Source: a virus. From it: 24,785 nucleotides of DNA. The stretch is taken from positions 1-24,785 of IMG/VR virus record IMGVR_UViG_3300035145_000576, one strand, 5' to 3'. Each line of letters begins with the position of its first letter. Position 1 is the first letter of the stretch. The notes below the pieces were generated by a model that was not told where the DNA came from, ran no database searches, and saw only the letters and a program-made list of their open reading frames with translations. A program made the position numbers and the translations under genes. Shown piece after piece: positions 1,379-24,785 of this stretch.

Positions 1379-4300
1379 TTATTCTTTTATTTTTTTTAAA
1401 TATGCAAGTTTTTGTGATTTAGTCATTTTAGAAGTTTTCCTAGCATAATCTTTGTACTCTTCTACTGTAAGATTTTTTTCTAATTCAAAAAGTAATTTTT
1501 TATTACTTTCTCTTGTAGCAGCAGCTTTTTTCTTTCCTTCTTCCTTTCTTTTGGCTTTAGCCTCTGTTTTAATTAGTTCGTGCTCTTCTATTTGGGCATT
1601 TACATCCCATGTTTTCCACCCTAAAGCTAATGCCATTCTTTGATATATAGAATTCCTATTGTCAAAGGCTTCTGTAATACTATTAAGTTCTGTAACAACC
1701 CTATCAAGAGGCACGTTAGCAAGTGCAGCAGCGTCGCCTACAATATTATAAGCAGGGGACGGTTGAAATCTACCATCTATCATTACGTCAAAACCTCGTT
1801 CTGCAATTACATCTTTTTCGAATTTTTTTGTACGAAGTATATTTATTATTTTTCTACCTTTTGAACCTATTTGAGGTGACGTATTTAAAGCAGCCAATAA
1901 AACATCTTCGTCTTGGCTCCAAATGCCTTTTTCTGTTTCTTCTTTGTATTCAATATATATATTCTTAAGTGTTGCGCCTATAGCTGTATATATACCCGCA
2001 CCTCTTAAAATTGTATCAAGCATACCATTAAGTAGCCTACTAATTTTTTTATTTTCAGCGGTTATTCTTTTTTGTTCTGCTTTTTCATCTAGTTCTTCGT
2101 CATCATCGTCAAAACCAGGTAATAATGCAAATAAAGCATTTTGCAATGCTCCAAATAAAGCATTTTGCACACCACCATAATAAAGAATTTTAGTTATATT
2201 TTCTTTATCATTGCCTCTTCTGTTTATTAAATCAAGTGCAGCTTTTTTCATTATACGAGTCATCTGCATTGGTGTATTTTGAAAGGCTAAAATAAATCTA
2301 CCACCTGTGCTAGCCTGTTGTTGTGAGATTAGCATTGGGTCACCAGATTGTTGTGTTTTATCTGATATTAATGAAAAATCCTCCCACGCTTTTATTTCAG
2401 CAACTTTAGGATCAAATCCTTCTTTAATATAGCTTTTTATTCTGTTTCTATAAAAAGTAGCGCCACCTAAAGATATTGCAAAGCTATCCGCTATTTGTGT
2501 TGGTATAAAACCTATCTTAAGCAACTTACTAATTATAGCTTTTACGCCACCTTGCTTTGCTGCTTGAGCAATTTCTTGTTCTTGTACATCAGATTTTAAA
2601 CCACCACGCCGTTCTTTTAACTTAGGTGAATTAAATATTTTAACAAAATCTTTTGCAAATTGTGGTATATTCATAAAAGCAGCAGCGGCTTGCAATGGAT
2701 TATTATCAGTATAATTTATAAAGTTTATTGTTGATAATAATTGCAATAAAGCTGATCTTCTGTTAAAGAACATTATTGTACCTACAGAACCATTCAAATA
2801 TTCATTAATAGCTTTAGTAAACTTATCAGTAGATGTTGGTTTATTAGAACCAGTTTCCATTCTGTATAAAACATTTTCCAATGCTTGCCTAACATTTTTG
2901 CCGTAAGCAGCTTCTATTTTTGCTAAGTTAGAATCACTAAATATTGTATTTTTATTTTTTATAAATTCATTTAAAAATCCTTTCCTATTAACATTTTCAG
3001 TTAAATCATTTAAATCAGAAAGTATACTATCAACATTCCAATATTCGCTAGGCTTTGGATATTTTTTACCTTTTAATAAACTTTTTACACCTTCAGCAAG
3101 AGCCATCATATCGGCATTATTACCAATCTCTTTATTAAGCTTGTCTATTTCTTTTTGCGATATTCCAGGTATTTTATAACCAGCTTGTGTCCATAAATAT
3201 ACTCTTAGCGCTTGATCATGTGTATAAACAGTGTTTCCTATAGGTTTTGCTAATTGTTTTTTAATGCCTGGAAAAGCTTTTAGAATGCTAATATAGTTAC
3301 TCTTTAATTCTTGTCTAGCTTTTTCAATTTCACCTATAGCTCTTGTATATGGTAATATTAAAGTATCATAAAAGAACTTTAAATCAGCTTCGCCTTGTTT
3401 TCCTTTACCTAAAAAGTTATATAATAAACCTTCAAAGTCTTCTGCTGATGGAGGTAGAAATGGTCTAAATTTTCCTTTCTTAGCGCCTGAAATTCTACCG
3501 GCAACTTGAGAAAATCTTGTTTTTGCAGGAATGTTTTTATTACGCTCAATCATTTCGTTAAACTCACGGCTTAACGGTCTTCTGCTTTGCTTAATAGCTG
3601 TGTCTTGTACTTTGCTATTTTCAACTAATTTTTGTGCACCTGCTTTGTTTTCTAAATCGTAATTAGATTTTTCAAGTTTTGTAAACACTGGAAATACCCT
3701 AAATGTTAATTCGCCTTTGCTTATTGTTGGCCTTATAACATATTGTACATCGCCTTGAAGCGGTGGTATATCTTTATTAATGTTACTATTACTTAAAGAA
3801 AATAACCCTTTTCCTCCAATTTGTATTAAATTAATATTTTTCTTTTGATACAAACCTACTATACCGCTTGCATCAAAGCCCTTTTGGCTTATTATATAAT
3901 CAGGAAAAGCTTCTCTTGTTTGTTTCCATTCTGCCTTGTGAGTTTCGCCTCCTTTAGTATAAGAAGGATAAAATATTTTGCCGCTTCCTGAAATTTGACC
4001 GCCATTTTTTAAAGCTTCTTTTGCTAATCCTTCAAATTTAGATTTATTATCAGCAATAAGTTTTCTTATGCTTTCTATGCCCGGTATATTCTGCGTAAAG
4101 TTAAATGAATCGTTGAAAGTGCCGTCAGGGTTAAATATGTTACGAACAGTAAAACTTCCCATTGGTGCAGTTTCGTCAAGCTTTAATTCAATAATTTGTA
4201 CAGATCCATCTTCAAAAGTTAATCTTAAATCACCATTTTGACCTCTAAATAAAGTACTTTTAACATTAGATTTAGCTAAGCGCAAAGCGTTATTAACTAA

Positions 4301-7300
4301 TTTTTCATAAGCTACACCTAAATTAACACCTTTAATAGCCCTTAACCTTAAGAATTTACCAAAATTATCTTCAACTAAAGATAGCGCAACTTCGTTAAAT
4401 TCTTTTTCGTTTAAACCAAAAGGCCTAGTAGCTCTATACTTTTTAAACTCTCTCCCAGCTATGTTAGTCCTTAATAAATTTTGGTATATTTCGCCTGACT
4501 GCTTATCGTTACCTAAAACACCTTCAACTTTTTTACTAAATTTAACATTGCCTCTTTCAGCTTGTCTGCTAAATTCAGCTCCTAAATTAGCGCCCACTTC
4601 AACACCTAGCCTTTCTTGATTTGCAGCTAATGCTTCTGATACAGGGCCGTTATTTTCAAAGTCGTAATTTATTAATTCAAACGCAAGTTCTTCCGCTGCC
4701 ATTTTAGAAAAAGCTTCTTTTCTACCGCGTATAACTTCACCATCTTTAAACATATAGCCTAAGTAATCTGCATCACTAACATTATTTACAGCGTTTGGTA
4801 CTCTACGTACAATCTCTGCTCCTGAGGTTCTGCCTGCTAAATCGGTTGATGTGGTTTCTCTATCTATCTTTTTACCCACCCAATCTGGATAAGGTAAAAA
4901 TTTACCATCAACTTGTTTTTGCACTGCAAATGGCATTGCTTGCATTAGCCACGTAGTTGTAGCGTTTTCAAGTGCTGTTTTCTTTAAACTTAAAAAATTA
5001 CGTCTTAGCTCACCGTCTTTTTTACTACCTAAGTATTTTTTAATAATAATATCTAACTGTTTACCTGCTTCTTTTTTAATTTCAGCTATTAAAGGCGTAA
5101 CTGTTCTGTTTTTTGAAACAGGAGCATCAATTTTATTTTTTAATACTCTAACAATAGACACAAGTTTATCAGTAGCAGCACTAATAACATTATCTGGAAA
5201 CGCATTTGCCCCTAAAAATGTTGTATACGTTTTTCTATCTTGTTGAACAGAAGGTTTTGATTCTTCTGCTACAACTTCTTTTTGTATATCTTCAAGCTGC
5301 GTTTTTGTTGTCTTGTCTAAATAGTCAGGGTTTTTTGATACAGCATCTAAAATACGGAATTTAATTCTATCGTTTATATAGCCGTATAATTCACCGCGCC
5401 CGTCAAACCTATATATTTCGCCTGAAGTGTATAACCTGTCTATAACATCGGAAACTAGCTCTTCTTTTAAATCTGGAGACAAATTTTGAAAACGGTTATT
5501 TACTTGCACTTGAACCATGCCAAATAATTCTTTACCAATTATTTCAGCATTTCTTCCTGTTTGTAATTTTACAGGATCGCCTCCGTATTCTTGACCAATT
5601 TTATTTAATGTTTGTTTTGTAAGTTGCAGTCCTTTACTTGTTTTATCAACTTGACTTCTTTTAGCTGTTTCTTTAACATCCCCAGCAATACTTTCGGTTA
5701 ATGCACCGGCTGCTCCTTTTGTACCTAATTTTTTAAATGCTTTTGATCTTGCTAAATTACCTTTTTCAACAGAAGATGCATAATCACGGACAAAATTTAA
5801 AACATCTTTACCATCATTAAATTTAATAGACATGCCAAACGTGTCTTGCAAAAATCTTCGTATTACATCCGCAAGTTTTGATAAAGCTGTTTCAGGTAAA
5901 ACAATATCTTGTGAAAGTATACTTTCTGATAACAATGTTAATACTTCCTCAAACTGGTCACCATTTAAATTGCCTTTACTATCTTGTTGCGTGTTGATAT
6001 AATTCATTAAATCCGCCTGAGTTTCTAATTGCAGTATTTGGCTATTATTTTTTTGTTTTGCATAGCTAGCAAGTCTAGCTTTGAATTGTTCGCTTAAAAC
6101 TTTATCACTATTAGGAAGTGATTTAAGTTCTTTTAGAAGCTCATTACCTAAGTTTATTTGCGTATTTATATTTCCTTTAATAGTTTTATATAAAAGTGCG
6201 TGTAAGAACTCATGGGCAGCTGTTGTAACAACATTATCTTGTTTAGATACATCTTTGTTTATTAATATTTTCTGGCTTCCATCTGTTTTTTGCAGTATAG
6301 TACCATAAGTGTTAGCTTCCTCTCGTAGCTTACTGTCTTTTTCGTCTTTTAACGCGCTATAATTATTTTTATTAGCAACCAGCCAGTCGCCTAATTCTTT
6401 TGTATCTTTAAATTCCTGTAGTTGTAAATCTTTTACAAGACCAGCGTCTTTTGCATTTATTATTATCTCAGTTTGTCTGCGCGTTTCAGCTTCAATTAAT
6501 ATATCTTGCTTTTGTTTATTAAGATTATCTACTTGTTCTTTAAGTTGATCTACTTTAAAATCTTTTATTTCTTGGGAAAGATTTTTATCTGATATTATTT
6601 TTTGATATTCGTTTTGAATTTTTTGGAATTCAGCATTATTGTTTATTAAAGATTGCTTTTCAATATCAGTTAGCTGATCAACATTTTTAAAAGTATTTAA
6701 TAATAATTTATTACTATTTTCAGTAATTTTAAATATATCGCCGCGTATGCTATTCTTTATTTCATCTGAAAGATCAGACTTTTGAAGTTCTTTTTCAAGC
6801 TTAGCAATCATTTGAAAATTCCTGCCTAGCTGCTGGCTATAGTCCTCAGTAATAAAAGGTTTTAAAGCGTAAGAACCAATTACAGGCGCTTTTAAAACAA
6901 CACCTGACATAAACGCGCCAGAAGCAATTGCATTTGGAACGCCTTCCCATATATTTTTTTGTTTATCACCTAGAATAGCAATGTCTACTGCATTTTCAAC
7001 AAGAGTAGCAACACCTTCACCTCCGCCTTCTTTTAATGTATCTTTAATTAACCTACCCTTTGTTATTTCTTCTCGTATAAATTTTCTGCTAGCGTCTAAT
7101 ACTTCATTACGTGCCGCGCCTTTTGCGCCCGTTAGTAAGCCTTTAACTCTTTTTACTTGACCTAAGGTAATTTTTTCTGTAAAGTATTCTGCAGCAGCTG
7201 TAATAAGAGGGGCGGAAAACCATTGCCAGGCATTATACTCAATCCCCATTTCATTTTCCATTTCGCGCATACTAGCATATTTATTACCGCCAGCCGATGC

Positions 7301-8890
7301 TGCAACCGCATAAAAACCATAAGTTGGTGCTAAAAACATAGCGCCATACTGTGGTAGCTGATTTCCGATTAAGTCGGTTGCCCATGTGCCAAAATCTGAC
7401 AATGAATTTATATCTTGAACTTGCTTAGGCGTTTCCAGTGCATCACGTATATCTGCAGACGCTTTTGATAAAGTTTTAGAAAGTGTGCTTGCTGGGAAAT
7501 ATTGTTGTAAGGCCCCAGCTATTACATCGTCATCAACCCCTACAGCTTCTCCCATAGTAACAGCCAACCATTCAGGTAAATTTAAAACACCTGCAGCTAT
7601 ATCAGCCCCCGATGCTAAAGCTTTACCAGCTAAATTAGGAATGTTACCGTATTCTCTTTTTACAACATCTAGTATTAGAGCATTGTCGTTTAGTTTTTCT
7701 GCTGCTACTTTATATAAGCCATTATACGTTTGACCATAAACATCTAAATCCGCATTTAGTTTTTCAGCTACAATTCGGCGCTCCGCATAATCTTGAAGAG
7801 TTGCTGTTTTATTTCTTATTTTTGCATCAAGCTCGTTTATTCTGTTTTTATTTATAGACAAATCTTGATCTAAAAAATCTAACCTATCAACGTCTTTTTT
7901 AAGATTCTTTCTAGTATTTTTATCTATTTTAAGAGCATCATTTTCAATAGCTTTTTGTAATGCTTTTGTTCTAAACCCAATAGAAAAAAGTTTACCTAAT
8001 GCTGGAATATTTGAAAACTCGCTTTGAGCTTCATCTAAAGCGTTGCGTAAGTTTTCTGATCTTCTAGATTTGTTTCTTTCTTCAATATAAGCGTTTTGAG
8101 CTTTTAACAGCTGCTCTTCTGTAGCGTTGCTATACACACCACCAATGCCAATTTCAAAATCTGCATCTGGATTTGCAATTTTTAAATATTTATTATATAA
8201 ATCGCCATTTTCAATATCTAGTTCCGGTTGCCTGTCCTCACCTATATCGCCACCGCTAACTCGTATTTTATTTAAAGATTCATAAGGTTTAAATACATCT
8301 TTAGCAAATTCAATATCCCCTTCGGCTTGTTTTTCAATAACTTCTTCGCTGGGCAATAATTTATCAACAGCTTCTCTTACGCGCTGTGATTCTTTTGATT
8401 CGCCTGTAACAGTTACTTCAGGGATGTTAATAGTTCTAGACGGAACAAGTTCTTTTTTTACGCCTCTACCAAATCCATTTAAGTATAGCTTAAGCACTTC
8501 TTCATCGCTCATGGATTCCCTGTAACCGCCAGGCTTTTTTTTCGCTTTGCGAACACTGTCCACAATTTCTCTTCCGGTATAGGGTTGGCTACTTTTAGGT
8601 AAAATATACTGGTAGGCGTCTAGGTCATCTTCTTTTACACCAACTATATCAGCTTGTCCAGACAATACCGAAGAAGTATCTTCCGGCGACAAACCCAAAT
8701 CTTTTGTTTCCTGAACCAATGCTGCTGCTTCCTGTTTTTGCGACTCCACAAGCGCAGCTTCCCTCGTTTTGTCTACTTGAAAATCCGGGTCTTCAAGTGT
8801 TTGATTTGTGATTTCAAGATATTCTTCTAATGTAACACCGCTAGCTTCTGCAGCAAAAATAGCATCTTGTTTAGATATTTTATTAGCCAT
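1379..8890 (-). CDS. Giant multidomain internal virion/polyvalent protein: zincin, sigma-70 region 2-like and PD-(D/E)XK nuclease segments
   Basis: The product has 2503 residues. Visible in order: an acidic N-terminal region (1-200); amphipathic and hydrophobic segments (about 417-480, 504-570 and 620-690); a coiled-coil region (about 690-815); a zincin motif HEFLH at 893-897 with a possible third ligand at E981/E982; a stretch like sigma-70 region 2 (about 1105-1195, with RFDGRG at 1161-1166); a conserved-looking stretch of unknown role (about 1330-1430); a PD-(D/E)XK signature (E1529, D1554, E1568, K1570); and a C-terminal region (about 2018-2265) resembling late domains of phage polyvalent proteins, with hydrophobic patches and FDDDDEELDE. 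A Lys-rich tail ends it. As third gene after two ejection-like proteins it occupies the T7 gp16 position, so it is probably packaged and injected. No lytic transglycosylase signature was seen. Activities are inferred from motifs. Confidence 0.85.
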   Translation of the reverse strand: MANKISKQDAIFAAEASGVTLEEYLEITNQTLEDPDFQVDKTREAALVESQKQEAAALVQETKDLGLSPEDTSSVLSGQADIVGVKEDDLDAYQYILPKSSQPYTGREIVDSVRKAKKKPGGYRESMSDEEVLKLYLNGFGRGVKKELVPSRTINIPEVTVTGESKESQRVREAVDKLLPSEEVIEKQAEGDIEFAKDVFKPYESLNKIRVSGGDIGEDRQPELDIENGDLYNKYLKIANPDADFEIGIGGVYSNATEEQLLKAQNAYIEERNKSRRSENLRNALDEAQSEFSNIPALGKLFSIGFRTKALQKAIENDALKIDKNTRKNLKKDVDRLDFLDQDLSINKNRINELDAKIRNKTATLQDYAERRIVAEKLNADLDVYGQTYNGLYKVAAEKLNDNALILDVVKREYGNIPNLAGKALASGADIAAGVLNLPEWLAVTMGEAVGVDDDVIAGALQQYFPASTLSKTLSKASADIRDALETPKQVQDINSLSDFGTWATDLIGNQLPQYGAMFLAPTYGFYAVAASAGGNKYASMREMENEMGIEYNAWQWFSAPLITAAAEYFTEKITLGQVKRVKGLLTGAKGAARNEVLDASRKFIREEITKGRLIKDTLKEGGGEGVATLVENAVDIAILGDKQKNIWEGVPNAIASGAFMSGVVLKAPVIGSYALKPFITEDYSQQLGRNFQMIAKLEKELQKSDLSDEIKNSIRGDIFKITENSNKLLLNTFKNVDQLTDIEKQSLINNNAEFQKIQNEYQKIISDKNLSQEIKDFKVDQLKEQVDNLNKQKQDILIEAETRRQTEIIINAKDAGLVKDLQLQEFKDTKELGDWLVANKNNYSALKDEKDSKLREEANTYGTILQKTDGSQKILINKDVSKQDNVVTTAAHEFLHALLYKTIKGNINTQINLGNELLKELKSLPNSDKVLSEQFKARLASYAKQKNNSQILQLETQADLMNYINTQQDSKGNLNGDQFEEVLTLLSESILSQDIVLPETALSKLADVIRRFLQDTFGMSIKFNDGKDVLNFVRDYASSVEKGNLARSKAFKKLGTKGAAGALTESIAGDVKETAKRSQVDKTSKGLQLTKQTLNKIGQEYGGDPVKLQTGRNAEIIGKELFGMVQVQVNNRFQNLSPDLKEELVSDVIDRLYTSGEIYRFDGRGELYGYINDRIKFRILDAVSKNPDYLDKTTKTQLEDIQKEVVAEESKPSVQQDRKTYTTFLGANAFPDNVISAATDKLVSIVRVLKNKIDAPVSKNRTVTPLIAEIKKEAGKQLDIIIKKYLGSKKDGELRRNFLSLKKTALENATTTWLMQAMPFAVQKQVDGKFLPYPDWVGKKIDRETTSTDLAGRTSGAEIVRRVPNAVNNVSDADYLGYMFKDGEVIRGRKEAFSKMAAEELAFELINYDFENNGPVSEALAANQERLGVEVGANLGAEFSRQAERGNVKFSKKVEGVLGNDKQSGEIYQNLLRTNIAGREFKKYRATRPFGLNEKEFNEVALSLVEDNFGKFLRLRAIKGVNLGVAYEKLVNNALRLAKSNVKSTLFRGQNGDLRLTFEDGSVQIIELKLDETAPMGSFTVRNIFNPDGTFNDSFNFTQNIPGIESIRKLIADNKSKFEGLAKEALKNGGQISGSGKIFYPSYTKGGETHKAEWKQTREAFPDYIISQKGFDASGIVGLYQKKNINLIQIGGKGLFSLSNSNINKDIPPLQGDVQYVIRPTISKGELTFRVFPVFTKLEKSNYDLENKAGAQKLVENSKVQDTAIKQSRRPLSREFNEMIERNKNIPAKTRFSQVAGRISGAKKGKFRPFLPPSAEDFEGLLYNFLGKGKQGEADLKFFYDTLILPYTRAIGEIEKARQELKSNYISILKAFPGIKKQLAKPIGNTVYTHDQALRVYLWTQAGYKIPGISQKEIDKLNKEIGNNADMMALAEGVKSLLKGKKYPKPSEYWNVDSILSDLNDLTENVNRKGFLNEFIKNKNTIFSDSNLAKIEAAYGKNVRQALENVLYRMETGSNKPTSTDKFTKAINEYLNGSVGTIMFFNRRSALLQLLSTINFINYTDNNPLQAAAAFMNIPQFAKDFVKIFNSPKLKERRGGLKSDVQEQEIAQAAKQGGVKAIISKLLKIGFIPTQIADSFAISLGGATFYRNRIKSYIKEGFDPKVAEIKAWEDFSLISDKTQQSGDPMLISQQQASTGGRFILAFQNTPMQMTRIMKKAALDLINRRGNDKENITKILYYGGVQNALFGALQNALFALLPGFDDDDEELDEKAEQKRITAENKKISRLLNGMLDTILRGAGIYTAIGATLKNIYIEYKEETEKGIWSQDEDVLLAALNTSPQIGSKGRKIINILRTKKFEKDVIAERGFDVMIDGRFQPSPAYNIVGDAAALANVPLDRVVTELNSITEAFDNRNSIYQRMALALGWKTWDVNAQIEEHELIKTEAKAKRKEEGKKKAAATRESNKKLLFELEKNLTVEEYKDYARKTSKMTKSQKLAYLKKIKE

Positions 8891-8896
8891 TATATA

Positions 8897-10123
8897 TTAT
8901 TCAATAGGAATTAATAATTTATTTTCAAAAAAGTCTTCTGGAGATTCCGTTATAGGCACATAATTTCCAGTTTTGGGGTTTTTTACTTCTATAACAGCGC
9001 CATCCGGTTGTTTTCTAATTCTATAGTCATTAGGGCTAGCAATAGATTTTTTATTACTGGTAACTGGTGCATAATTAAAATCATAAAAGTCTAGCTCGTT
9101 ATATGTTCCGTTCGCTGATAAGCTATTATAAGCCTCAATTATGCCGGCTTGTTTATTTATATCAGTATCACGAAGCGGGCTGCCGTTTTGCGAATTTGTA
9201 TTGCCATTTTCTTGGTTTTTCATTGCCTTTCCAACACTTGCAGCGTTTTGAAAATCACCTAATATTTTAGGTATCATTGCAGCTTTAAGTTCTTCTAACT
9301 TTGCTGGGTTAGTCACAACATCTTCTGGTATATCGCTAAAATCAACACCTTTATATAAACCATCTCTAGCCATTGATCTAAAATCATCAGGGTTTTCAGC
9401 AAACATAGCCTCTAGTTCCTGCTCTGTAGCTTGCGCTTTAACGCTATTCCAAACACCGGAATTCATTACAGTCATTTTCATGTCCGCAAGCTCTTTAGAC
9501 TTCCCGTAGGATTTATTGAATGGCATATTCATGTCTTTAAGATCGACCATGTTCCCATCTGGAAGCTTGAATTGAAAATTACCACCTGGGCCAATAACAA
9601 GTTCTCTATTACCTGTTGCAACATTTGAGTTTGTAGCTATTTGGTAAGCGTCGTTGCCATTTGAAAATTGCCCTTTTTTATCACCTTCAAGATATTGCTC
9701 GTTAAATTCTTTTAACTCATCTTGATTTTTTTTAATTTGAGCAAACTGATTGTTTACACCATTCATTATATCAAGTTGTTCCATATATTCAGGAGTACCA
9801 ACTTGATAGTTGTTTATAGCTGATGCCGCTGCAGCATATTCATTCTTAAGCTCCATTAACTTAGTTGTAATAGCTTTTTGATCTTCAGGAGGCGATTGCA
9901 ATGCATCTATATCGCTTTTCATAGATCTAAGATATTGAGCTGTTTGTTGAGCAGCTTTATCTCTAATTGCCTGCGCGACTGCTTGTGATTTCTGTAATGC
10001 TTTCATAACAGGCTCCGCACCTTTGCTAATAACTTCACCGTAATCAACAAAACCTTGCGATCTAGCTAATCTGCCTGCGCCCGCTATGAGCATCGAAGAT
10101 GTACTTTGTTTTTGTTTTGCCAT
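8897..10123 (-). CDS. Putative internal virion (DNA-ejection) protein, T7 gp15-position
   Basis: This 408-residue soluble protein is mostly helical by composition. Residues 1-130 are Ala/Gln/Lys-rich (SSMLIAGAGRLARSQGFVDY at the start region, then long amphipathic helices), followed by a coiled segment (MNGVNNQFAQIKKNQDELKE). The middle part near residues 165-210 is Gly/Asn-rich and beta-like (VIGPGGNFQFKLPDGNMVDL). No enzyme motif is seen. It lies between the small Ala/Gly-rich protein and the 2503-residue giant, with spacings of 15 and 6 nt. That is the order of T7 gp14-gp15-gp16, whose products form the channel that carries DNA across the envelope. The role is assigned from position and composition, not from sequence identity to gp15. 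Confidence 0.72.
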   Translation of the reverse strand: MAKQKQSTSSMLIAGAGRLARSQGFVDYGEVISKGAEPVMKALQKSQAVAQAIRDKAAQQTAQYLRSMKSDIDALQSPPEDQKAITTKLMELKNEYAAAASAINNYQVGTPEYMEQLDIMNGVNNQFAQIKKNQDELKEFNEQYLEGDKKGQFSNGNDAYQIATNSNVATGNRELVIGPGGNFQFKLPDGNMVDLKDMNMPFNKSYGKSKELADMKMTVMNSGVWNSVKAQATEQELEAMFAENPDDFRSMARDGLYKGVDFSDIPEDVVTNPAKLEELKAAMIPKILGDFQNAASVGKAMKNQENGNTNSQNGSPLRDTDINKQAGIIEAYNSLSANGTYNELDFYDFNYAPVTSNKKSIASPNDYRIRKQPDGAVIEVKNPKTGNYVPITESPEDFFENKLLIPIE

Positions 10124-10138
10124 TTTAAATTTTATTTA

Positions 10139-10825
10139 TTATCCCCCGCCACCAAAGCCAAGCCCAGCCAGTAAATTCCCGCCAAAGCCACGATCAGCGC
10201 CGCCTTCCATACCAGCACCTGCTTGAGCAGCTCCAACCGCGCCCCCAACTACACTGCCAATCCCGCCTACAATAGATTGTGTAGCTGCTTGCCTTGCTTC
10301 GTTAGCTGCTGCTAATCTTTGTTGCGACATGCCCAGCAGCGTAGATGTTTTATCATATTGTAAAGTTCTAGCGTCTGCAGCTCCTCGAGCCTCTAAGTCT
10401 TGATTAACCGCAGCCTGTCTTGCCGCCGCTGCTTGATTAGCACGTTCTTGCTGCCCTATATTGGCTGCTGCCGCGGCTGATGCTGTTGTTTGTTGATTAG
10501 CTAAAGTTTGTGCTAAAGCCGCAATACCGGATCCACCAGCTGCACCTTGTAGGTTTTGCATAATATTTGCTTGGCCTAACTGTTGTTGTTGCATTTGGAA
10601 TTGTGCAGCTCTTTGATCAACAGTAAGGTCTTCCATTGTATTTTCTAAGTTAGCATATAGATTAGAAGTGTCTAATTCTTGGTATGCAACTTTATTAGCA
10701 TCAAATTCTGCTTGTGCAGCTGCCTGTTCTCTTTTTCTTTTTCCGCTACCAATAATACCACTGGCTATGCCTCCAAGACCTGAAACAATCCCGCCGATTG
10801 CTGCTGCTGTTGCTATTCCTGCCAT
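10139..10825 (-). CDS. Ala/Gly/Gln-rich internal virion protein, T7 gp14-like
   Basis: The 228-residue protein opens with a glycine-zipper hydrophobic segment (MAGIATAAAIGGIVSGLGGI, extending to about residue 27) followed by a basic KRKRE stop. Residues 30-180 are long Ala/Gln-rich helices, and the protein ends in a second glycine-zipper region (about 185-228, SIVGGIGSVVGGAVGAA, then a poly-Gly end). This architecture matches the small membrane-inserting ejection proteins of podoviruses (T7 gp14, P22 gp7/gp20-type), which insert in the outer membrane as DNA enters. Its start lies 13 nt inside the cupin-like gene, implying coupled translation, and the 408-residue ejection-like protein follows. 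The poly-Gly C-terminus is unusual, but the frame is intact. Confidence 0.78.
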   Translation of the reverse strand: MAGIATAAAIGGIVSGLGGIASGIIGSGKRKREQAAAQAEFDANKVAYQELDTSNLYANLENTMEDLTVDQRAAQFQMQQQQLGQANIMQNLQGAAGGSGIAALAQTLANQQTTASAAAAANIGQQERANQAAAARQAAVNQDLEARGAADARTLQYDKTSTLLGMSQQRLAAANEARQAATQSIVGGIGSVVGGAVGAAQAGAGMEGGADRGFGGNLLAGLGFGGGG

Positions 10826-11301
10826 AATTTTTCTTTTCGTTTATATTCTTCAATAGTAATAGAGTACAAAGACTCTTCTACTTCTTTCATATCTTTAGTA
10901 TTTGTAGGGTTTTTATGCACATTTATAAATAATGAATCCTCTAAAGATAGTATTAATCTTTTTGCTCCTTTTATAGACTTTTCGTAGCAAGGAGCTATAT
11001 GTTCAATTTGCTCTCCGTCTGTAGTTACTAATATCCTGCCTTTTAATAAAAACCAAAAGTGTTCTGTATGATGCATTGCACTTACTACAACGCACTCCTT
11101 AGGCATGTACATTTTACGCATATATAATTGATCTGCAAACTCATTTTCAATTCTAAATACGTCGTTATTAACTAAGTTTTTACCATCACCATAAATTCCT
11201 TCAATATGATTATTTTCAATCATTGTATTTTGAAGATCTTCAAGCTGTTGTACAAAATTACTTAATTTATTATTATTTAATTCAATTTTATTTTCAAGCA
11301 T
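10813..11301 (-). CDS. Cupin-like small protein in the virion gene cluster
   Basis: In this 162-residue protein, residues 60-131 form a recognisable cupin-type double motif. Motif 1 is SAMHHTEHFWFLLKGRILV (H77, H78, E80, H81, G88), and motif 2 ends in LEDSLFINVHKNP with H129. Cupins are small beta-barrels that often bind a metal through such His/Glu residues. Residues 1-35 form a polar helix rich in Asn and Gln, and the C-terminus is a charged helix. Proteins of this shape occur among structural genes of marine phages; whether they are enzymes or structural barrels is not known to me. It sits between the 109-residue conserved protein and the gp14-like protein, whose start it overlaps by 13 nt. 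Confidence 0.65.
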   Translation of the reverse strand: MLENKIELNNNKLSNFVQQLEDLQNTMIENNHIEGIYGDGKNLVNNDVFRIENEFADQLYMRKMYMPKECVVVSAMHHTEHFWFLLKGRILVTTDGEQIEHIAPCYEKSIKGAKRLILSLEDSLFINVHKNPTNTKDMKEVEESLYSITIEEYKRKEKLWQE

Positions 11302-13159: not shown

Positions 13160-16100
13160 TTAATTTGAAGTGTAACATGTTTCGTCAATATAGAAGTGAA
13201 CATCAAAGAATACTTGAGTGTCACCTGAAACGGTAGCGCGCCCTATTCCTTGCATTGAAAATTCTTTTGCATCTAAGTTATTATTTTCATTAGATACAAA
13301 GCTTGTAGGCAATCCTTTTATGTAATTAAAGAATTTACCTTCTTTGTCTATAAATTGTTTTACATCACCGGTTTGTAAATTCGTTTGAATTAAATTACAA
13401 TACCATCCGGTTGACTCAGTAGTGTAATTAGGCACTAATGATGTATTCGCTTGAAGCTCTGATATTGTATATAGTCTTTGGCTTGTAGGCCCTTCTGTTC
13501 CGTATAAATACGTTTTTGAATCAGAACCTGTATAGTTTAATGTTTTAAATTTCTTAACTGAATTAGGCTCAGCGTTCATTAAAAATCTTACACTACTTTC
13601 ATATTGCACACCGTAAAAATTGTTTCTTGTTGCGCTTTCAACACCATGCTGCCATATTCTACCGTCTTTAAAAGAAAAATAAGTATTGTTTAACGATAAA
13701 GCGTTTTCTAAGTTAAAACTTTTTCTTGAGGTCCACCCTTTAACATCTTCTTTCCAAGACACGGTGGTTGATTGCGTATCTAGCTTATCTTGCCAATAAG
13801 GCGTAAGGTTATTTAATGTTAAGTTGTAAACATCTTTATCATCATCGTATGACCCTATTAATTTTTGTGACGAGTGAAGGTTATCGCTAAAGAAATCGCG
13901 CATATTAGCAGCTGATATTTCTGTTAAGCCTTGCCCGCCACCTAATCCGCCGGATAATCTTAATACAACACCTCTGTTTTTATCAGTAAAGTAAGCTCTA
14001 TTACCATATGCGGCAAATGATTCGGGGTTTTTAGATATACCATATTCACCTGCATAGGGCAGCGCTTGTCCAAGAACTGCGTTATTACTTACAACATTGG
14101 TGCTCCCGTCTGCATTAAATAAAGCATCTTTATTAGCTAATATCTGCAAACATTTATCTTCACAAAGTGTAATTAAGTTCGTATCTCTTGAATATAACTT
14201 TTGAATACTTGTGTAATACGGATTTAAATCTTTTGTTATAGGCTCAGCCGCAATAAATTGATTTAGTCTGTTTACTCCGGATGATGAATTAAATATTTGT
14301 GAAAATATAAGGCCTGTTGCTTTTAATTCTTCACCATACGCTTCATCTAATACAGTTGATACAATAGGTCCTTTATCAATTCTTGTTGCATTAAAATCGT
14401 CTCTAATGCGATCAGATTCAACACCGTTACCAAACGAATAACAATTAAACCAATTTAATTTTTGTATTGGTTGATGCGATGCGTTTATTGTGCCTGGGTT
14501 ATTAATCTCAAATATATTACTTGCTGAATAATATAGATCTAAGTCTACAGCTTCTTTAGGATAAGTTTCAAATATAGCTGGGTTTGTAGAGCTATAAGTT
14601 TCAGCGTCTGAGGCATACACCTTTACAAATTCAACAGCAGTTCTGGGCGGGTTTGGTGCTGTTCCTGTTTGTAACGCAGGCAGCCCAGCAGTTGTAGCTA
14701 TTGGCTTATCAATAGTAATATTCCATCTAATAACTCTTTGTGACCCGTATTTACCAGACCCATGCCTACCCGTTCTTCTATTATCTACACAATATGCAGA
14801 TTTATAGCTTCTTCGTATAGTGTATGTATTAGTTGGAAGTTCTTTTTGTGGGTCATCTTTAAATCTAAATGTGCTACCAGCAGTACTTAATGATTTTGCA
14901 AAACCTAAATGGTGTGCATCACCTGGGCTATTTGTTGGCCACCCCCACCATATACCAAGTCTATTATAAAAAGCCTTCTTTTGCTGCCATGGGTTACCAA
15001 AGCCGTGAAATGATATTGTTAATTGTTGTTCGCCGGCATTTATGCCCTTCCCTTTATTAGGTCTATCCTGAATATTGCCACCTTCGTATTTAACGTCTGA
15101 CCCTGCTCTTTTTCTTACATTTAAAGGTGTTGTGCTATCCCAGAACCAACCTTTAGAAACATCAGGTGATACATTTCTCCACCAGCTACTTTTACCATCA
15201 ACACCAATTCTAGCAACCTCTTTTGTGTACTCAACGCTTAACTGCGTATCTTCGGCTAACTTTAATATATTTTCTTCTAAGGCTAAATCTTTATATATTT
15301 TTACAAAGAATCTTCCTTCATATTCAGGTTTTAATTCTGTTTTATTTTCATATATAACAATATCCAGCTTAGCAGGATATGCAATATTTTCCATAAATTC
15401 CAAAGAATCATCTGTAGGCGATTTTAATTGTACCCTATATACAGGCCCTTGCTTTTGAATATATTCAACTTTGAAATATTCACTTACATTAACGCCGCTA
15501 ATAATGCGAGCAAACAAATTATTTTTTGTATTAGTACCTTTTAAGCCGCCACCACCACCAGTACCATCTTCTTTACCATCAAAATCCTCTTCAGGTATTT
15601 CAAAAAAGCCCTTGTTAACAGCTGGGTAACCATCTGCTGTAAATGAAGTTAATTGTTTACCTATTGCATCACGGGTTGTTTTAACCGCATCAGGCGCTTC
15701 GTTAGATATTGCTAATACTTTATATCTAGCTTTTTCTGGTATAAATACATCGTTGTCATGCTGCTTTTTTAATTCTAAAAATGATTCTTCATCAATTTTG
15801 TTTCTATCTGCAGACGGGAATGATAACCAAACGCTACCATCTTCTGGTAAATAAAATCTATCTAATGCAAGATTATAATATTCATTTGATGTCTCTTTTA
15901 CATAAAATTGATAATGCGTTGCCCAAGCAGGTGGATTGTTTTTCAAACCAACCTCTAATGTATTATATGAGTCCGCAAACTCTTTAGACAATGATCTACC
16001 ACCGGAATCGTTAGTAAATACAGGTGTAGTTCTACCATACAGGTCTTTATAAACAACACCCATTTGGTAGGTGCGCATTGTTTTAATAGAAGTTGCGGGT

Positions 16101-17674
16101 TCGCCTGCTATTGGATCGGATTGCACGTTTTCACCATCAACAATTTTTTCAATTTTTGTTGGATCATGCACAATGCTAAAATCAAAATCGGGTATAACAT
16201 CGTTGTTTGCAAAATCTTTCATATTAAAATTCTGCACGTAGTTTCCAAATATAATCCGGTTACCTGTTATTTCCTGAGCTAAAGCCCTGCGGGGTACATT
16301 GTCGTAACTTCTTAATATTTGATTTGATGGTAATAGCGATGATATTAATTCGGTTTCAATTTTAATTCGACCACTATACCCAGGTTGCGGCGAATAGCTG
16401 GTATCATTCCATTGATTGTATTGCTTGCCTGTTATATTAGGCGCATTTTTTTCAATGGTATCTACTTTGTATATGTTTTGCGAATTAGATTCTTTGTAAA
16501 GTATATCAACAGCAATTACATCATCTGGAATATCAGGTGTAATAAAATCGCGTATTTCTAATATACGAATATTATTAGTCATTGCTAAGTTGTACCCGTC
16601 AGCGCCTGTATATTCAAATTCTTCGCCGGGAATAAAAGCTATTTCTGTAAATGGAGAAAATGTAGAAAACTGGTTGTCATCATATTTATACCTATATGCA
16701 AATCGTGGAAATTTAAATTCAAATAAAGGATCATCTTGTTCAAGTGCTACTTCAAAGCTTTGATTACCTGTTGGCACAAATTCACCTATGCTTTGCACTT
16801 CACATACAGCTTGCAATTCAGAATTTATTTTAGTAACTTTTACTCTAACTTGATATTCTCTGTCTAAATTATTATTATCATCATTTATTGTAAGCAACAA
16901 AAAATCACCAGCAATATATGCTACGGCATCAGTCCAGTTTAATGTAACAACTGTACCGAAATCTAAAGTAATTACTTCTGTAGGGTCATCTAATGGATCT
17001 GTCGACAATGTTGTAAATTCATATGTAGTAGATGTTTTAACCGCGCCGTCTCTCGTAGTATTTTTCTTATATATAGTAGGAGATAATAGCGGCGATCTTT
17101 TTATAAGAGTAACGTCCGCTTCAATAAAGTCTCTACCATATATTTGTGTATGAGTATCAAAATCAACTGACCCTGCTTTAAATTTAGATATTTCTATTTT
17201 TTTAGGTTCAGTTTGATTGTCTGTAAAGAATAAAAACCCCTCAAGTATGTTTATACCTGTGATTAAAAAATCTTCACTAAAATTTAAAATATTATTTTTG
17301 TCAACGAGTATAGGAAATACAACGTCGTTTACAGAATCGTATTCTGCAACTGCACTAAAGTTTGGTGCAGCAATAAACCAATATATTTTTTCAGTAGTAG
17401 CATCTTTGGTTTTACCAATACATACTGCACCACTAGGGATATATTTATCAACTCCATAGGTGTCCCATGTAACATGCAAATTAGTATTAGGATCGTAAGT
17501 CCTATTGCGCAACTCTACGTTCCCTAAAAGTGTTTGTAATGTACCTACATCTGAGCCTTCTGAAGTTGCAACTTCTAAGTTGAGTGCATCTCGGTACTCG
17601 CCATTTGGAACTAAACGCTCATCAAGGTCTTTGTTCATTTTACCCCTGACAAACGTATGAATTAATTCTGGCAT
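13160..17674 (-). CDS. Tail stabilization/tubular-type protein (P22 gp10-like in role), very large
   Basis: The 1504-residue protein carries, at residues 11-52, the motif GKMNKDLDERLVPNGEYRDA followed by EGSDVGTLQTLLGN. I associate this with 'stabilization' or tail-tube proteins of marine Bacteroidetes podoviruses and crAss-like phages. The rest is mostly beta-strand by pattern: a propeller-like N-terminal region (VCIGKTKDATTEKIYWFIAA), FnIII-like segments, a Gly5 linker near residue 706 (DGTGGGGGLKGT), and a C-terminal part with AYFTDKNRGVVLRLSGG and SYDDDKDVYNLTLNN (about 1275). Such proteins close the portal vertex and form the tail tube or hub. It is much longer than the P22 gp10 or T7 gp12 type, so extra domains are probably displayed outside. 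It begins 3 nt after the adaptor gene stop. Confidence 0.82.
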   Translation of the reverse strand: MPELIHTFVRGKMNKDLDERLVPNGEYRDALNLEVATSEGSDVGTLQTLLGNVELRNRTYDPNTNLHVTWDTYGVDKYIPSGAVCIGKTKDATTEKIYWFIAAPNFSAVAEYDSVNDVVFPILVDKNNILNFSEDFLITGINILEGFLFFTDNQTEPKKIEISKFKAGSVDFDTHTQIYGRDFIEADVTLIKRSPLLSPTIYKKNTTRDGAVKTSTTYEFTTLSTDPLDDPTEVITLDFGTVVTLNWTDAVAYIAGDFLLLTINDDNNNLDREYQVRVKVTKINSELQAVCEVQSIGEFVPTGNQSFEVALEQDDPLFEFKFPRFAYRYKYDDNQFSTFSPFTEIAFIPGEEFEYTGADGYNLAMTNNIRILEIRDFITPDIPDDVIAVDILYKESNSQNIYKVDTIEKNAPNITGKQYNQWNDTSYSPQPGYSGRIKIETELISSLLPSNQILRSYDNVPRRALAQEITGNRIIFGNYVQNFNMKDFANNDVIPDFDFSIVHDPTKIEKIVDGENVQSDPIAGEPATSIKTMRTYQMGVVYKDLYGRTTPVFTNDSGGRSLSKEFADSYNTLEVGLKNNPPAWATHYQFYVKETSNEYYNLALDRFYLPEDGSVWLSFPSADRNKIDEESFLELKKQHDNDVFIPEKARYKVLAISNEAPDAVKTTRDAIGKQLTSFTADGYPAVNKGFFEIPEEDFDGKEDGTGGGGGLKGTNTKNNLFARIISGVNVSEYFKVEYIQKQGPVYRVQLKSPTDDSLEFMENIAYPAKLDIVIYENKTELKPEYEGRFFVKIYKDLALEENILKLAEDTQLSVEYTKEVARIGVDGKSSWWRNVSPDVSKGWFWDSTTPLNVRKRAGSDVKYEGGNIQDRPNKGKGINAGEQQLTISFHGFGNPWQQKKAFYNRLGIWWGWPTNSPGDAHHLGFAKSLSTAGSTFRFKDDPQKELPTNTYTIRRSYKSAYCVDNRRTGRHGSGKYGSQRVIRWNITIDKPIATTAGLPALQTGTAPNPPRTAVEFVKVYASDAETYSSTNPAIFETYPKEAVDLDLYYSASNIFEINNPGTINASHQPIQKLNWFNCYSFGNGVESDRIRDDFNATRIDKGPIVSTVLDEAYGEELKATGLIFSQIFNSSSGVNRLNQFIAAEPITKDLNPYYTSIQKLYSRDTNLITLCEDKCLQILANKDALFNADGSTNVVSNNAVLGQALPYAGEYGISKNPESFAAYGNRAYFTDKNRGVVLRLSGGLGGGQGLTEISAANMRDFFSDNLHSSQKLIGSYDDDKDVYNLTLNNLTPYWQDKLDTQSTTVSWKEDVKGWTSRKSFNLENALSLNNTYFSFKDGRIWQHGVESATRNNFYGVQYESSVRFLMNAEPNSVKKFKTLNYTGSDSKTYLYGTEGPTSQRLYTISELQANTSLVPNYTTESTGWYCNLIQTNLQTGDVKQFIDKEGKFFNYIKGLPTSFVSNENNNLDAKEFSMQGIGRATVSGDTQVFFDVHFYIDETCYTSN

Positions 17675-20351: not shown

Positions 20352-21767
20352 TTACGGTGTTGGTACTGCTTTTAGCAATACGAAGTTGTTAGCGGCTTGT
20401 ACACATAAAGCTCTTTCAGAAAGGAAATGTACATTCATTTCATCAGCTTCAGATGTATAATTTCCACCAACTGAACCAGTTACCCAAGATTTCATTCTTC
20501 GGTCATCAGCTTCAGATGCGCGGTAGCGTACGTGAAGGAATGGACGAGAAATGTTCTTGCCTAGTTGTTGATCGTAAACTGTAGAAGTTCCAGCTGGTAC
20601 AACTACACCTTCAATATCACTAACTAATCCACGAGTAGTAGAATCGTTAAGATATTTCCAGTCAGTTTTATAGAAGTCATAAGAACCTCTACGGAAACCA
20701 GAGAAACCTAAGTTAAGCGCCATATCTTCAGAATTGTCAAATACACCGTAAGATGTACCACCAGTTCCGTAAGAATTTTGCTTAGCTAGCATGTTATCAA
20801 TACCCAAAGAAGTAGCACGATCTAAGAAAAGCATATTTTCTTCGATAGCTCCTTGCTTGTCAAGTTCTTGTAGGATAGTATCAAAGTCTGCAAGACCGTC
20901 ATCACCACCAAAGTCAGCGTTAGTATAAACTAATCCACGTGTACCAATTGCGGCGAAAAGACCTTCAGAACCTGAATCAGCACCAGAAGGACCATTAGTT
21001 GCAGCAGCAGATCCTGCAGCAGCTTTTTCAGCCTCAACCATTGCCATTTCAAGTTGATCTTCAAAACGAATACGAGCTTCGTGCTCAGACTTTAAATACC
21101 ATAAGTACCCAGAAGTACCAGCCTCAGAAGTTACTTCAACCCAACCGATTTGAGCAACATCAGAACCATTTACATTATACTTGTCACGCAAGATAATTGG
21201 TTTGTTGCTGAAAGTTGTGAAAGAAGCATCAATTGAGTTACCAGCAGTTTGAGATCCTTTAGCATACTCAGAACCATAAACAAAAAGTTTAATATCTGTT
21301 GTACCGTCAGCACCTAATTCGCTAATGTTTGCAGCGCTATATGCTTGCACAGTAGCTGTAGTAGCTGTTGGCTTCGCAGATACGTAAGCTTTGATAGTTA
21401 CAAGATCTTTAGAAAGCACGATAGTAGCCCCCACACCTACTAGGTCTGCGTCAGCTGCAGATCCAAAAGTAATTGTGTTTGCACCGTCAGTTGTAATATC
21501 GTCAAAAGCGATATGTAGACGCCCTTGCTCAGACCAAACAACTTGATCAGAAGCCATAGGCATTTCAGCCCCAACCATACGCAAGAATCCAGAGATGGTA
21601 CGGTTTCCGTAACGCTCTACTTCTTTATCGTATACTTCAGGTAGAAATTGTTGTGTAAAGTCCATGTCAGCCACAGACAAATAGTTGTCCCCAAATAATC
21701 CTTTAACGGGACGTGGTGTTAAATGTGCCAGGTTAGCTAATGTAGCTGGCGTAGTTGCAAATGCCAT
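20352..21767 (-). CDS. Major capsid protein
   Basis: The 471-residue protein follows portal and scaffold-like genes in the canonical order. The N-terminus (MAFATTPATLANLAHLTPRP, then VKGLFGDNYLSVADMDFTQQ) and the stretch FLPEVYDKEVERYGNRTISG resemble major capsid proteins of marine Bacteroidetes phages as I remember them. The internal region (SEHEARIRFEDQLEMAMVEA near residue 230, then an Ala/Gly/Ser-rich loop) fits an HK97-fold spine helix and loop, but the fold is inferred. Base composition differs from its neighbours: sampled 60-nt lines within the gene have 43-47% G+C, against about 17% in a sampled line of the giant gene, consistent with codon selection for very high expression. The hairpin just downstream fits an abundant, stabilised message. 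No cleavage site for a prohead protease is evident. Confidence 0.82.
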   Translation of the reverse strand: MAFATTPATLANLAHLTPRPVKGLFGDNYLSVADMDFTQQFLPEVYDKEVERYGNRTISGFLRMVGAEMPMASDQVVWSEQGRLHIAFDDITTDGANTITFGSAADADLVGVGATIVLSKDLVTIKAYVSAKPTATTATVQAYSAANISELGADGTTDIKLFVYGSEYAKGSQTAGNSIDASFTTFSNKPIILRDKYNVNGSDVAQIGWVEVTSEAGTSGYLWYLKSEHEARIRFEDQLEMAMVEAEKAAAGSAAATNGPSGADSGSEGLFAAIGTRGLVYTNADFGGDDGLADFDTILQELDKQGAIEENMLFLDRATSLGIDNMLAKQNSYGTGGTSYGVFDNSEDMALNLGFSGFRRGSYDFYKTDWKYLNDSTTRGLVSDIEGVVVPAGTSTVYDQQLGKNISRPFLHVRYRASEADDRRMKSWVTGSVGGNYTSEADEMNVHFLSERALCVQAANNFVLLKAVPTP

Positions 21768-23019: not shown

Positions 23020-24785
23020 TTACTTAGGTTCAAAACTACCTAAGTCAAATCCACCGCCGATTATATCGTTGCCACTTGATTCAAAATTTTGTGGTCCCGT
23101 TTGTTTTTGGCGTTGTTCTATAAGCTCACTTTGTTGTGTAGCTTGTATTTTTGTTCTTTGATCTTTACGATCTTCTTTTTCTTTTATAGATTGCTTTTGG
23201 CCATCAACCTCTATACCTTTTAATTGCAGGTTATATTGGAATTCAGTAGCCATTAAATCTTTCTTAGCTTGTACTTCAGCTTGTAGCTTTTGCAATTCAA
23301 GTTGACCTTCTATTTGTAATAGTTCTGCTTTTTGCTGAGTAATAACTTGTTGCTTTTGAATCTCAGCTTGCGCAGCAACTTGTTGAGCTTGTGCATTAGC
23401 TTGCGCCTGAGCTTGAATATTTTGCTGTTGCATTAATTGATCACGCTCTTGTTTCTTTTTACGTCGTATTTTTAATAGCTGATTAGCAAGTTTTAAATTC
23501 TTAATTTCACGTATATCAATAGCGTCATCTAAATCAATAAGCCCAGCAGATAAAGCTGTTTGTATATTATTTTCTAATCTTGCTTTTTCTTCGTCGTCTG
23601 GCATTAATTCTATAAATATACCAAAATCATATAAATGCAAGTTTTGCATTTCACTGAGCGTAGCTACATTATGTGCACCTATTTTTTGAATAAATGCTTC
23701 GCGTGTAGGTGAATACTCTATTATATCGGATATTCTCAATGATAAACATTCCGCTAAGTGAGCGCTAATAAATAAACCACCATCTACAATATGTCTTGTA
23801 GCGGTATTTGAATTAGCTGCTGCCATTTTTTGTACACCTACCAACGCTCGATCATCTGGCATACTACCGTCGCGAGCTTCGTTTAATCCCGTGACGTCTC
23901 TTATCATTTGCAAATAATAATTGTATGTAGCAATAAGAGATTGTATTTTGTTTCCGCCAGATCCACTAGTAATTTCTTGAATTGGCACTTTACCAGGATT
24001 CATATCACCGTCTTGCGTAAATGATCTACCAATTACGGAGCCCGTTTGGAAGAACATGTTTAACGCCTCCTGCGGATTGTAATTTGTACCATTACCTAAA
24101 TCAATTTCAGCTAACCCATCAGCATCAAGATAAACACCATCTGGCACCATTCTTGACATTACTTGTTGTAATTTTAAATGTGTTAACTGTATTGTATCTG
24201 CAAAACTAGTAATGCGGCTTACAAGCGATTCAATTTTGCCTTTATACATTCTAGGTGCATGAATACTATAATTCATTAATACCTTAGAACTATCGCTTTT
24301 TGGGCGCATCATATTTTTAGCCAGCTGCCATTGTAATAAATAATCTGTGCCTAATACTAAAACACCTTCATATAAAACCTCTAGCGATCTTGAAAGTTTA
24401 CCGAATTGCTCTTCAAGCATTTCAACAGGCGGATCAAATTGATCATCACGAAGTAATATCTTAGACGCACCAGTTGCTGTTTCTTTTACTTTGTATACTT
24501 CATTCATGTAAGTTTTATAATTGAAATATAAAACCTGCACAGTATTTGAATCAGAATTGTTATAATTTGTTACGCTTCTGTCATAAAAACCATTATTTTG
24601 ATAACCTTGTTTAGATATTTGTTCCATATCTTCATTGGTTAAATCAGGAAATTGCTTTTTAAGTTCATTAAGCGGCACGTGTCTTACCTCACCACAATAG
24701 TATATATCATCAAAATAAGGTGATTCTGTATATGACCAAACCAAATTAGCTGGGTCTACGTAATCTACAACAACACCTTCAGATA
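23020..24785 (-). CDS. Portal protein, 5' end outside the window
   Basis: A TTG at 24744 could be read as a start, but the frame stays open upstream to the window edge (codons for SEGVVVDYVDPAN precede LVWSYTESPYFDD), so the gene is truncated by the window; 587 residues are visible. The stretch VDPANLVWSYTESPYFDDIY, then CGEVRHVPLNELKKQFP, is characteristic of portal proteins in Bacteroidetes podoviruses as I remember them. Residues near TYNYYLQMIRDVTGLNEARD and GVQKMAAANSN recall the portal crown region. The last 150 residues are a Gln/Ala/Lys-rich coiled coil (QAQAQANAQAQQVAAQAEIQ) that may project inward as a barrel. The portal forms the dodecameric gate for packaging and ejection. The terminase gene probably lies beyond the right edge. 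Confidence 0.82.
   Translation of the reverse strand, partial: SEGVVVDYVDPANLVWSYTESPYFDDIYYCGEVRHVPLNELKKQFPDLTNEDMEQISKQGYQNNGFYDRSVTNYNNSDSNTVQVLYFNYKTYMNEVYKVKETATGASKILLRDDQFDPPVEMLEEQFGKLSRSLEVLYEGVLVLGTDYLLQWQLAKNMMRPKSDSSKVLMNYSIHAPRMYKGKIESLVSRITSFADTIQLTHLKLQQVMSRMVPDGVYLDADGLAEIDLGNGTNYNPQEALNMFFQTGSVIGRSFTQDGDMNPGKVPIQEITSGSGGNKIQSLIATYNYYLQMIRDVTGLNEARDGSMPDDRALVGVQKMAAANSNTATRHIVDGGLFISAHLAECLSLRISDIIEYSPTREAFIQKIGAHNVATLSEMQNLHLYDFGIFIELMPDDEEKARLENNIQTALSAGLIDLDDAIDIREIKNLKLANQLLKIRRKKKQERDQLMQQQNIQAQAQANAQAQQVAAQAEIQKQQVITQQKAELLQIEGQLELQKLQAEVQAKKDLMATEFQYNLQLKGIEVDGQKQSIKEKEDRKDQRTKIQATQQSELIEQRQKQTGPQNFESSGNDIIGGGFDLGSFEPK

Follow-up and report, generated by a model that had tools for sequence, protein, structure and literature searches.

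Gene order around the giant gene

The window analysed here is the whole 24.8-kb (24,785 nt) virus fragment of IMG/VR record IMGVR_UViG_3300035145_000576, whose structural genes all lie on the minus strand. These include the portal gene (23020-24783), the MCP gene (20352-21767), which is assigned to phrog_13704 and has a Crass_capsid match below the cut-off only, and the gene for a muzzle-like tail protein of 1,504 aa (13160-17674), which matches PF25729 (crAss_MUZ_C), the mark of a Crassvirales muzzle, above the cut-off at 6e-9 and phrog_14478 at 4e-133. The muzzle gene lies between the MCP gene and the gene of a giant protein, together with genes for two more structural proteins, small genes and genes for proteins of 228 and 408 aa. 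The 408-aa gene (8897-10123, minus strand) adjoins the giant gene and occupies the slot that virion proteins hold in the gene order of relatives. The giant gene is a single, unbroken ORF of 2,503 aa whose limits, 1379-8890 on the minus strand, are exactly those first described, and it has relatives in IMG/VR. Among the smaller genes, a cupin-like gene of 162 aa situated between the tail and cargo genes (10813-11301) shows likeness to short tail fibre proteins (phrog_12032, 2e-22), and a 74-aa ORF at 1126-1350 matches short pieces of the large, uncharacterised PHROG families 727, 3477 and 38880.

The preliminary description of this DNA likened the position of the giant gene to that of T7 gp16. 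This analogy had to be abandoned, because the neighbours include a crAss-type muzzle and because the gene order is that of the Cellulophaga phages phi13:2 (Pachyviridae) and phi38:1 (Pervagoviridae) and of the Flavobacterium elemoviruses (Elemovirus); we thus compare the giant protein with the cargo proteins of crAss-like phages. For T7-type internal virion protein families, searches with the giant protein and its two neighbours found nothing in Pfam and nothing significant in PHROG. The C-terminal domain of the giant protein (see below) is present on sixteen MAG contigs, about half of which bear Bacteroidota lineage labels, and the window belongs to an uncultured, marine, crAss-like phage whose host is probably in the Bacteroidota.

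Conserved and exchangeable modules of the giant protein

Direct searches of Pfam (to E 1), PHROG and the PDB with the giant protein yielded nothing usable, and no RNAP family was found in it. Scans of IMG/VR with the giant protein, and then with its C-terminal domain, retrieved 28 and about 590 relatives, respectively. We worked with a set of 103 non-redundant relatives (set 1), 102 of which have at least 2,000 aa, and with a replication set of 86 dissimilar relatives that was fetched later; relatives of near-full length number at least 102.

The N-terminal region (aa 1-500; 7391-8890, minus strand) is restricted to close relatives, with aa 1-300 found only in the window copy and in L001, and aa 300-500 also in L046. 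It is followed by a module, here called mem (aa 503-797; 6500-7384, minus strand), that also occurs in structural proteins from the virions of flavobacterial phage isolates, and whose profile matches phi38:1 gp101 (9e-48), elemovirus gp21 (2.6e-48), phi13:2 gp127 (3e-37) and phi18:3 gp123 (1e-38). A membrane-active part had been proposed for the giant; the module is indeed conserved, but the window copy contains just one weak hydrophobic stretch.

Judging from residue conservation, the zincin-like metallopeptidase domain (aa 870-1046; 5753-6283, minus strand) is the most conserved predicted enzyme of the giant family. Its profile matches 73 of the 103 relatives, and matches to Pfam zincins stay below threshold. 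The catalytic HExxH motif (HEFLH, aa 893-897, in the window copy; 6200-6214, minus strand) is kept in 99 of the 102 relatives of at least 2,000 aa and in 85 of the 86 relatives of the replication set. In an alignment of 21 diverse relatives with a mean identity of 24%, the H, E and H of this motif and a downstream E are the sole invariant columns (21/21); the downstream residue (column E200 of alignment A2) corresponds to E982 of the window copy (5945-5947, minus strand) and is predicted to be the third zinc ligand.

The next segment (aa 1117-1198, with approximate limits; 5297-5542, minus strand) is predicted to form three helices, and we consider it likely to be a domain resembling sigma-70 region 2. 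It occurs in 45 of 102 relatives and is common even to relatives that differ elsewhere. Pfam Sigma70_r2 (PF04542) matches five of 37 members of this segment family, the best at 1.2e-5, and also, at 4e-5, the giant ORF in the record of L086. The window copy itself has no direct Sigma70_r2 match and is tied to the matching members through the family alignment; the sigma-like assignment of the preliminary description is probably right. An AF2 model of aa 1085-1460, which covers this segment and the one that follows, is helical, has a mean pLDDT of 85 and fits three helices of the sigma-2 type, and a Foldseek search of the PDB with this model gave no significant match. In hhalign comparisons with the free-standing sigma factors of the phages themselves, the segment aligned in the right register, weakly (p 0.05). 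It is because a confident, helical model comes with no significant match in the PDB that we grade the region 2-like assignment as likely and not as proven. The segment is followed by a conserved domain, here called mid (aa 1218-1452; 4535-5239, minus strand), which is present in 50 of 103 relatives, is included in the same AF2 model, and fills a place between the sigma-like and nuclease segments that had no assignment in the order of segments first proposed.

The putative nuclease module (aa 1475-1760; 3611-4468, minus strand) is of the PD-(D/E)xK type, and its E-D-ExK residues (E1529, D1554 and E1568-x-K1570) are invariant in 13 of 13 relatives at about 20% identity. Its weak profile matches are to Holliday junction (HJ) resolvases, RecU and Mrr, all of them PD-(D/E)xK enzymes, and to no other nuclease families; these proteins have in common with the module the E-D-ExK pattern and the predicted alpha-beta-beta-beta order, in which a helix is followed by strands around the D and the ExK, with a similarity that is below threshold. 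Comparison of predicted folds in BFVD gave a match of 2.3e-11 to a free-standing phage protein; strong matches were confined to uncharacterised phage models, the best being A0A6J7X0G9 and Q58MG2, the latter from Prochlorococcus phage P-SSM2; both are free-standing and uncharacterised, and their predicted fold is that of the nuclease module. Nothing significant was found with Foldseek in the PDB for the nuclease model, and a scan with the nuclease alignment (A7) detected ten loci only.

The polypeptide ends in a near-universal domain (aa 1771-2449; 1544-3580, minus strand) with 591 relatives in IMG/VR. Its earlier designation as a polyvalent-type C-terminus has to be withdrawn, since no polyvalent-associated domain from Pfam matched it, and it is instead a domain of ca. 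680 aa that is near-universal in this phage clade. Catalogued polyvalent-associated domains were found neither with the giant at E 1 nor in the 20 families to which members of alignment A3 had weak matches, and comparison of the C-terminal domain with 50,697 phage records gave no significant match (one, at E 0.05).

In most relatives, the C-terminal domain is preceded by a HAD-type domain (DFDDTL...LTAR) that is absent from the window copy. In L003 (aa 1999-2290), L014 and L020, a P-loop kinase of the zeta/AAA_33 type (AAA_33, 5e-16 in L003) is located between the two HAD motifs, and in L064 this place holds an ART-like stretch, recognised by eye (aa 2216-2480). The HAD domain and the inserted kinase possibly constitute a kinase-phosphatase pair for repair or signalling. 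Following the segment-by-segment comparison of homologues suggested in the preliminary description, we counted changes on the tree of the C-terminal domain and found at least eight for the nuclease, nine for HAD, 20 for the sigma-like segment, in part a matter of detection sensitivity, and two for the zincin. Modules are thus gained and lost independently, with exchangeable effectors and a nearly fixed protease. Gene splits that separate modules in L007, L029, L080, L081 and L117, which we first read as natural, proved to be single frame changes across which homology is continuous, and they may be sequencing errors or real frameshifts.

Full-length homologues devoid of catalytic residues had been named as a finding that would speak against a delivered takeover package; the relatives retain instead the residues of both the zincin and the nuclease, and this check did not refute that reading. 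Alternatively, the giant could primarily form an ejection channel or act as a scaffold-like part of the virion, its enzyme-like segments being inherited leftovers that serve structurally. The conservation of the mem module and of the C-terminal domain, and the fact that the gene closes the structural block, would suit such a protein, but the predicted zincin and nuclease residues are kept (99/102 and 13/13) while their surroundings fall to about 20% identity, and the modules are swapped, which structural parts seldom tolerate; we therefore consider this explanation improbable.

A short motif at module borders

Inspection of set 1, from which the form of the motif and its regular expression were drawn, revealed the motif [KRLMQIV]FS[KR] at module borders, namely where the mid domain ends, ahead of HAD and of the C-terminal domain, and behind the zincin. 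The 86 relatives of the replication set were not used to define it. In the window copy, just two sites are seen, one canonical and the other degenerate. The former, NVKFSK (aa 1449-1454; 4529-4546, minus strand), is at the border of the mid and nuclease modules and is a predicted processing site of a kind that was replicated as a feature of the family; the latter, IKQSR (aa 1766-1770; 3581-3595, minus strand), precedes the C-terminal domain in the position of the KIKFSK sites of relatives.

Beyond the two sites that suggested it, the form [KRLMQ]FS[KR] appears 57 times in set 1, compared to 18.8 ± 4.1 times in shuffled sequences, and control motifs were much weaker. Only nine of the 102 sites found upstream of the C-terminal domain in this set fall in domain cores, where 28% were expected (p 2e-6), and the density of the motif is 0.11 per kb N-terminal and 0.86 per kb C-terminal of HExxH. 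The replication set reproduced this distribution, with 111 sites against 26 ± 4.6 in shuffles and, again, much weaker controls; five sites are in cores, 108 are C-terminal of HExxH and three N-terminal of it (1.06 vs 0.04 per kb). A general effect of composition is ruled out by the rarity of the motif in the remaining ORFs of the same loci (0.038 per kb), as is a DNA repeat by the use of both Ser codon families.

Non-homologous sites of one protein tend to agree in the residue before FS (in a permutation test that ignores phylogeny, p was 0.0004 in one set and 0.0002 in the other). For instance, the site that closes the mid domain and the one before the C-terminal domain are concordant in all 27 classed proteins, 18 of them F/F and nine R/R with none mixed, a pattern produced by only two independent switches. 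In L138, the motif flanks the nuclease on both sides. The zincin-less relatives L075, L076 and L086 are without a site before the C-terminal domain, which cannot be recognised either in 23 of 93 zincin-positive proteins; likewise, 41 of 96 relatives in set 1 and 30 of 86 in the replication set have no canonical site, some of them having variants.

From these patterns, we infer that the linked zincin cuts at the junction motif. The idea of self-release by the zincin, put forward in the preliminary description, thus gains from a motif that lies C-terminal of the zincin and that was replicated in an independent set, with protease activity and cleavage as its conjectural part. The motif might also be cut by a host protease or by a separate phage protease, or mark old points of gene fusion, and the linked zincin would then not be the cutter. 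Position alone defines the motif, which agrees with this possibility; we nevertheless regard it as very improbable, since the agreement of residues within proteins and the confinement of sites to the region C-terminal of the zincin suggest co-evolution inside the same protein.

It is also conceivable, if rather unlikely, that the giant is virion cargo whose chain works uncut, as is thought for the N4 virion RNA polymerase; the zincin would then act on other targets, such as host or virion proteins, and the motif would be recognised, for instance by the portal, tail or chaperone, as a signal for docking, unfolding or packaging. The N4 polymerase (gp50) sets a precedent, because it is, as proposed for our protein, an ejected giant virion protein with a zincin-like HExxH domain (PMC12633501); besides, crassvirus cargo has to unfold in part to exit (PMC10172136), and there are the 23 of 93 zincin-positive relatives in which the site before the C-terminal domain is unclear. 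However, a general signal for ejection or unfolding would also be expected N-terminal of the zincin or in other cargo genes, where the density of the motif is, respectively, 0.04-0.11 and 0.038 per kb, and the site before the C-terminal domain is missing from the relatives that lack the zincin. N4 gp50 differs as well in that it carries an RNAP, whereas the giant has the sigma-2-like segment instead and its relatives show no detected RNAP of the crAss or Rpb2 type.

Proposed delivery, host transcription and relation to known phage proteins

Cargo proteins encoded downstream of the muzzle are found in crassvirus virions and are thought to be ejected (PMC10172136). Those of crAss001 (gp45, gp46, gp47, gp49 and gp50; PMC10172136) and phi14:2 (g065-g067) are, like the giant, products of large genes downstream of the muzzle, and were detected in virions by MS. 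In contrast to them, the window encodes a single fused giant, with a predicted zincin in place of RNAP subunits, and no module of the giant significantly matches phi14:2 g066 or g067. As a separate observation, a GNAT-like stretch, identified by eye, is near-identical in the giants phi13:2 gp127 (Pachyviridae) and phi14:2 g067 (Crassvirales).

Further counterparts are gp101 of phi38:1 and phi40:1, phi18:3 gp123, phi13:2 gp127 and Elemovirus gp21, which have the same gene order and a homologous mem module. In Elemovirus gp21, known from an elemovirus that grows on Flavobacterium sp. BAL314, the zincin is present too (2.4e-12, with HExxH), without the pattern of junction motifs. Both HExxH and this pattern are not present in the giants of phi38:1, phi13:2 and phi18:3, and the C-terminal domain and the sigma-like, mid and nuclease modules were not found in the giants of Pervagoviridae, Pachyviridae and Elemovirus. 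GenBank notes on phi18:3 gp123 and phi40:1 gp101, the latter 99.9% identical to phi38:1 gp101, label them as structural protein with experimental MS/MS proteomics; these two proteins are without the zincin and the C-terminal domain, and their link to the giant is the mem module and the gene order. The delivered takeover package of the preliminary description is thus supported indirectly, by module-sharing proteins that occupy the same gene position and are annotated as structural from MS/MS, and by the presence of equivalent crAss cargo in virions. By analogy with these proteins, the giant probably resides in the virion and leaves it together with the DNA.

A search for the crAss-type virion RNAP with the phi14:2 RNAP as a query produced no match in 20 related records, the window itself being a fragment, and no polymerase of this type or of the Rpb2 type was detected in related records. 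Yet 18 of 19 related uncultured contigs encode a free-standing, full sigma-70-family factor (ca. 253 aa) that contains both region 2 and region 4 (L121-L132; for example, G009:C1:40947-41705) and is absent from the elemovirus, phi38:1 and phi13:2. Reliance on the host RNA polymerase is therefore likely, and it makes plausible that a sigma-2-like domain is delivered, be it to activate or to block transcription.

Putting these data together, we hold it moderately probable that the giant is a virion-carried polyvalent protein that is delivered and then cut by its zincin at the junction motif to free effectors. Its layout would be an N-terminal delivery module, the zincin, a variable string of effectors (in the window copy, the sigma-region-2-like domain, the mid domain and the PD-(D/E)xK nuclease) and the conserved C-terminal domain. 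Loaded in the virion, the protein would enter the cell along with the DNA, and the zincin would cleave at motifs of the type [IVA][KRQLM]FS[KR] at module junctions, with NVKFSK (aa 1449-1454) as the clearest predicted cut site of the window copy. The sigma-like module, once freed, could bind the host RNA polymerase, a target that we propose because we detected no RNA polymerase genes in relatives, and transcription would be redirected or blocked; the nuclease may attack host or competing DNA.

The system as a whole cannot be called undescribed, because Iyer et al. 2017 (PMC5512222) had already put forward polyvalent proteins with processing zincins, and their delivery. Like the giant, those proteins unite numerous unrelated enzyme domains in a single polypeptide of a phage, with a zincin-like MPTase as the hub. 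The giant family combines at least two unrelated predicted enzyme domains (the zincin and the PD-(D/E)xK module in the window; HAD, kinase and ART-like segments in relatives), and its gene is encoded with late or packaging genes, in the vicinity of those for the portal, MCP and muzzle. It differs from the polyvalent proteins in that its C-terminal domain is outside the Pfam polyvalent-associated domains; also, we did not find sigma factors, HAD or zeta-type kinases mentioned in PMC5512222, which describes no cleavage motif. As far as our searches reach, the novelty lies in the giant family with its set of domains, in a sigma-2-like module within a polyvalent protein, in effectors inserted into a HAD domain and, most of all, in a motif from which cut sites can be predicted. 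The 2017 proposal of zincin processing came without cut sites, and the motif predicts them in many of nearly two hundred relatives, which makes the proposal directly testable.

More tentatively, a large clade of uncultured marine phages could be packaging a true self-cleaving polyprotein. The zincin and a motif that co-varies within each protein would then form a plug-in system for any effector placed between copies of the motif, such as sigma-2, a nuclease, or a HAD phosphatase with an inserted kinase or ART; such effectors would enter the cell within one injected chain and be set free there. If true, this would explain how giant cargo crosses a narrow tail as a single chain and then acts as separate enzymes. 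A virion-delivered sigma-2-like domain would represent an unusual seizure of transcription at time zero, and the motif could be used to locate module borders and, with them, new counter-defence or takeover enzymes.
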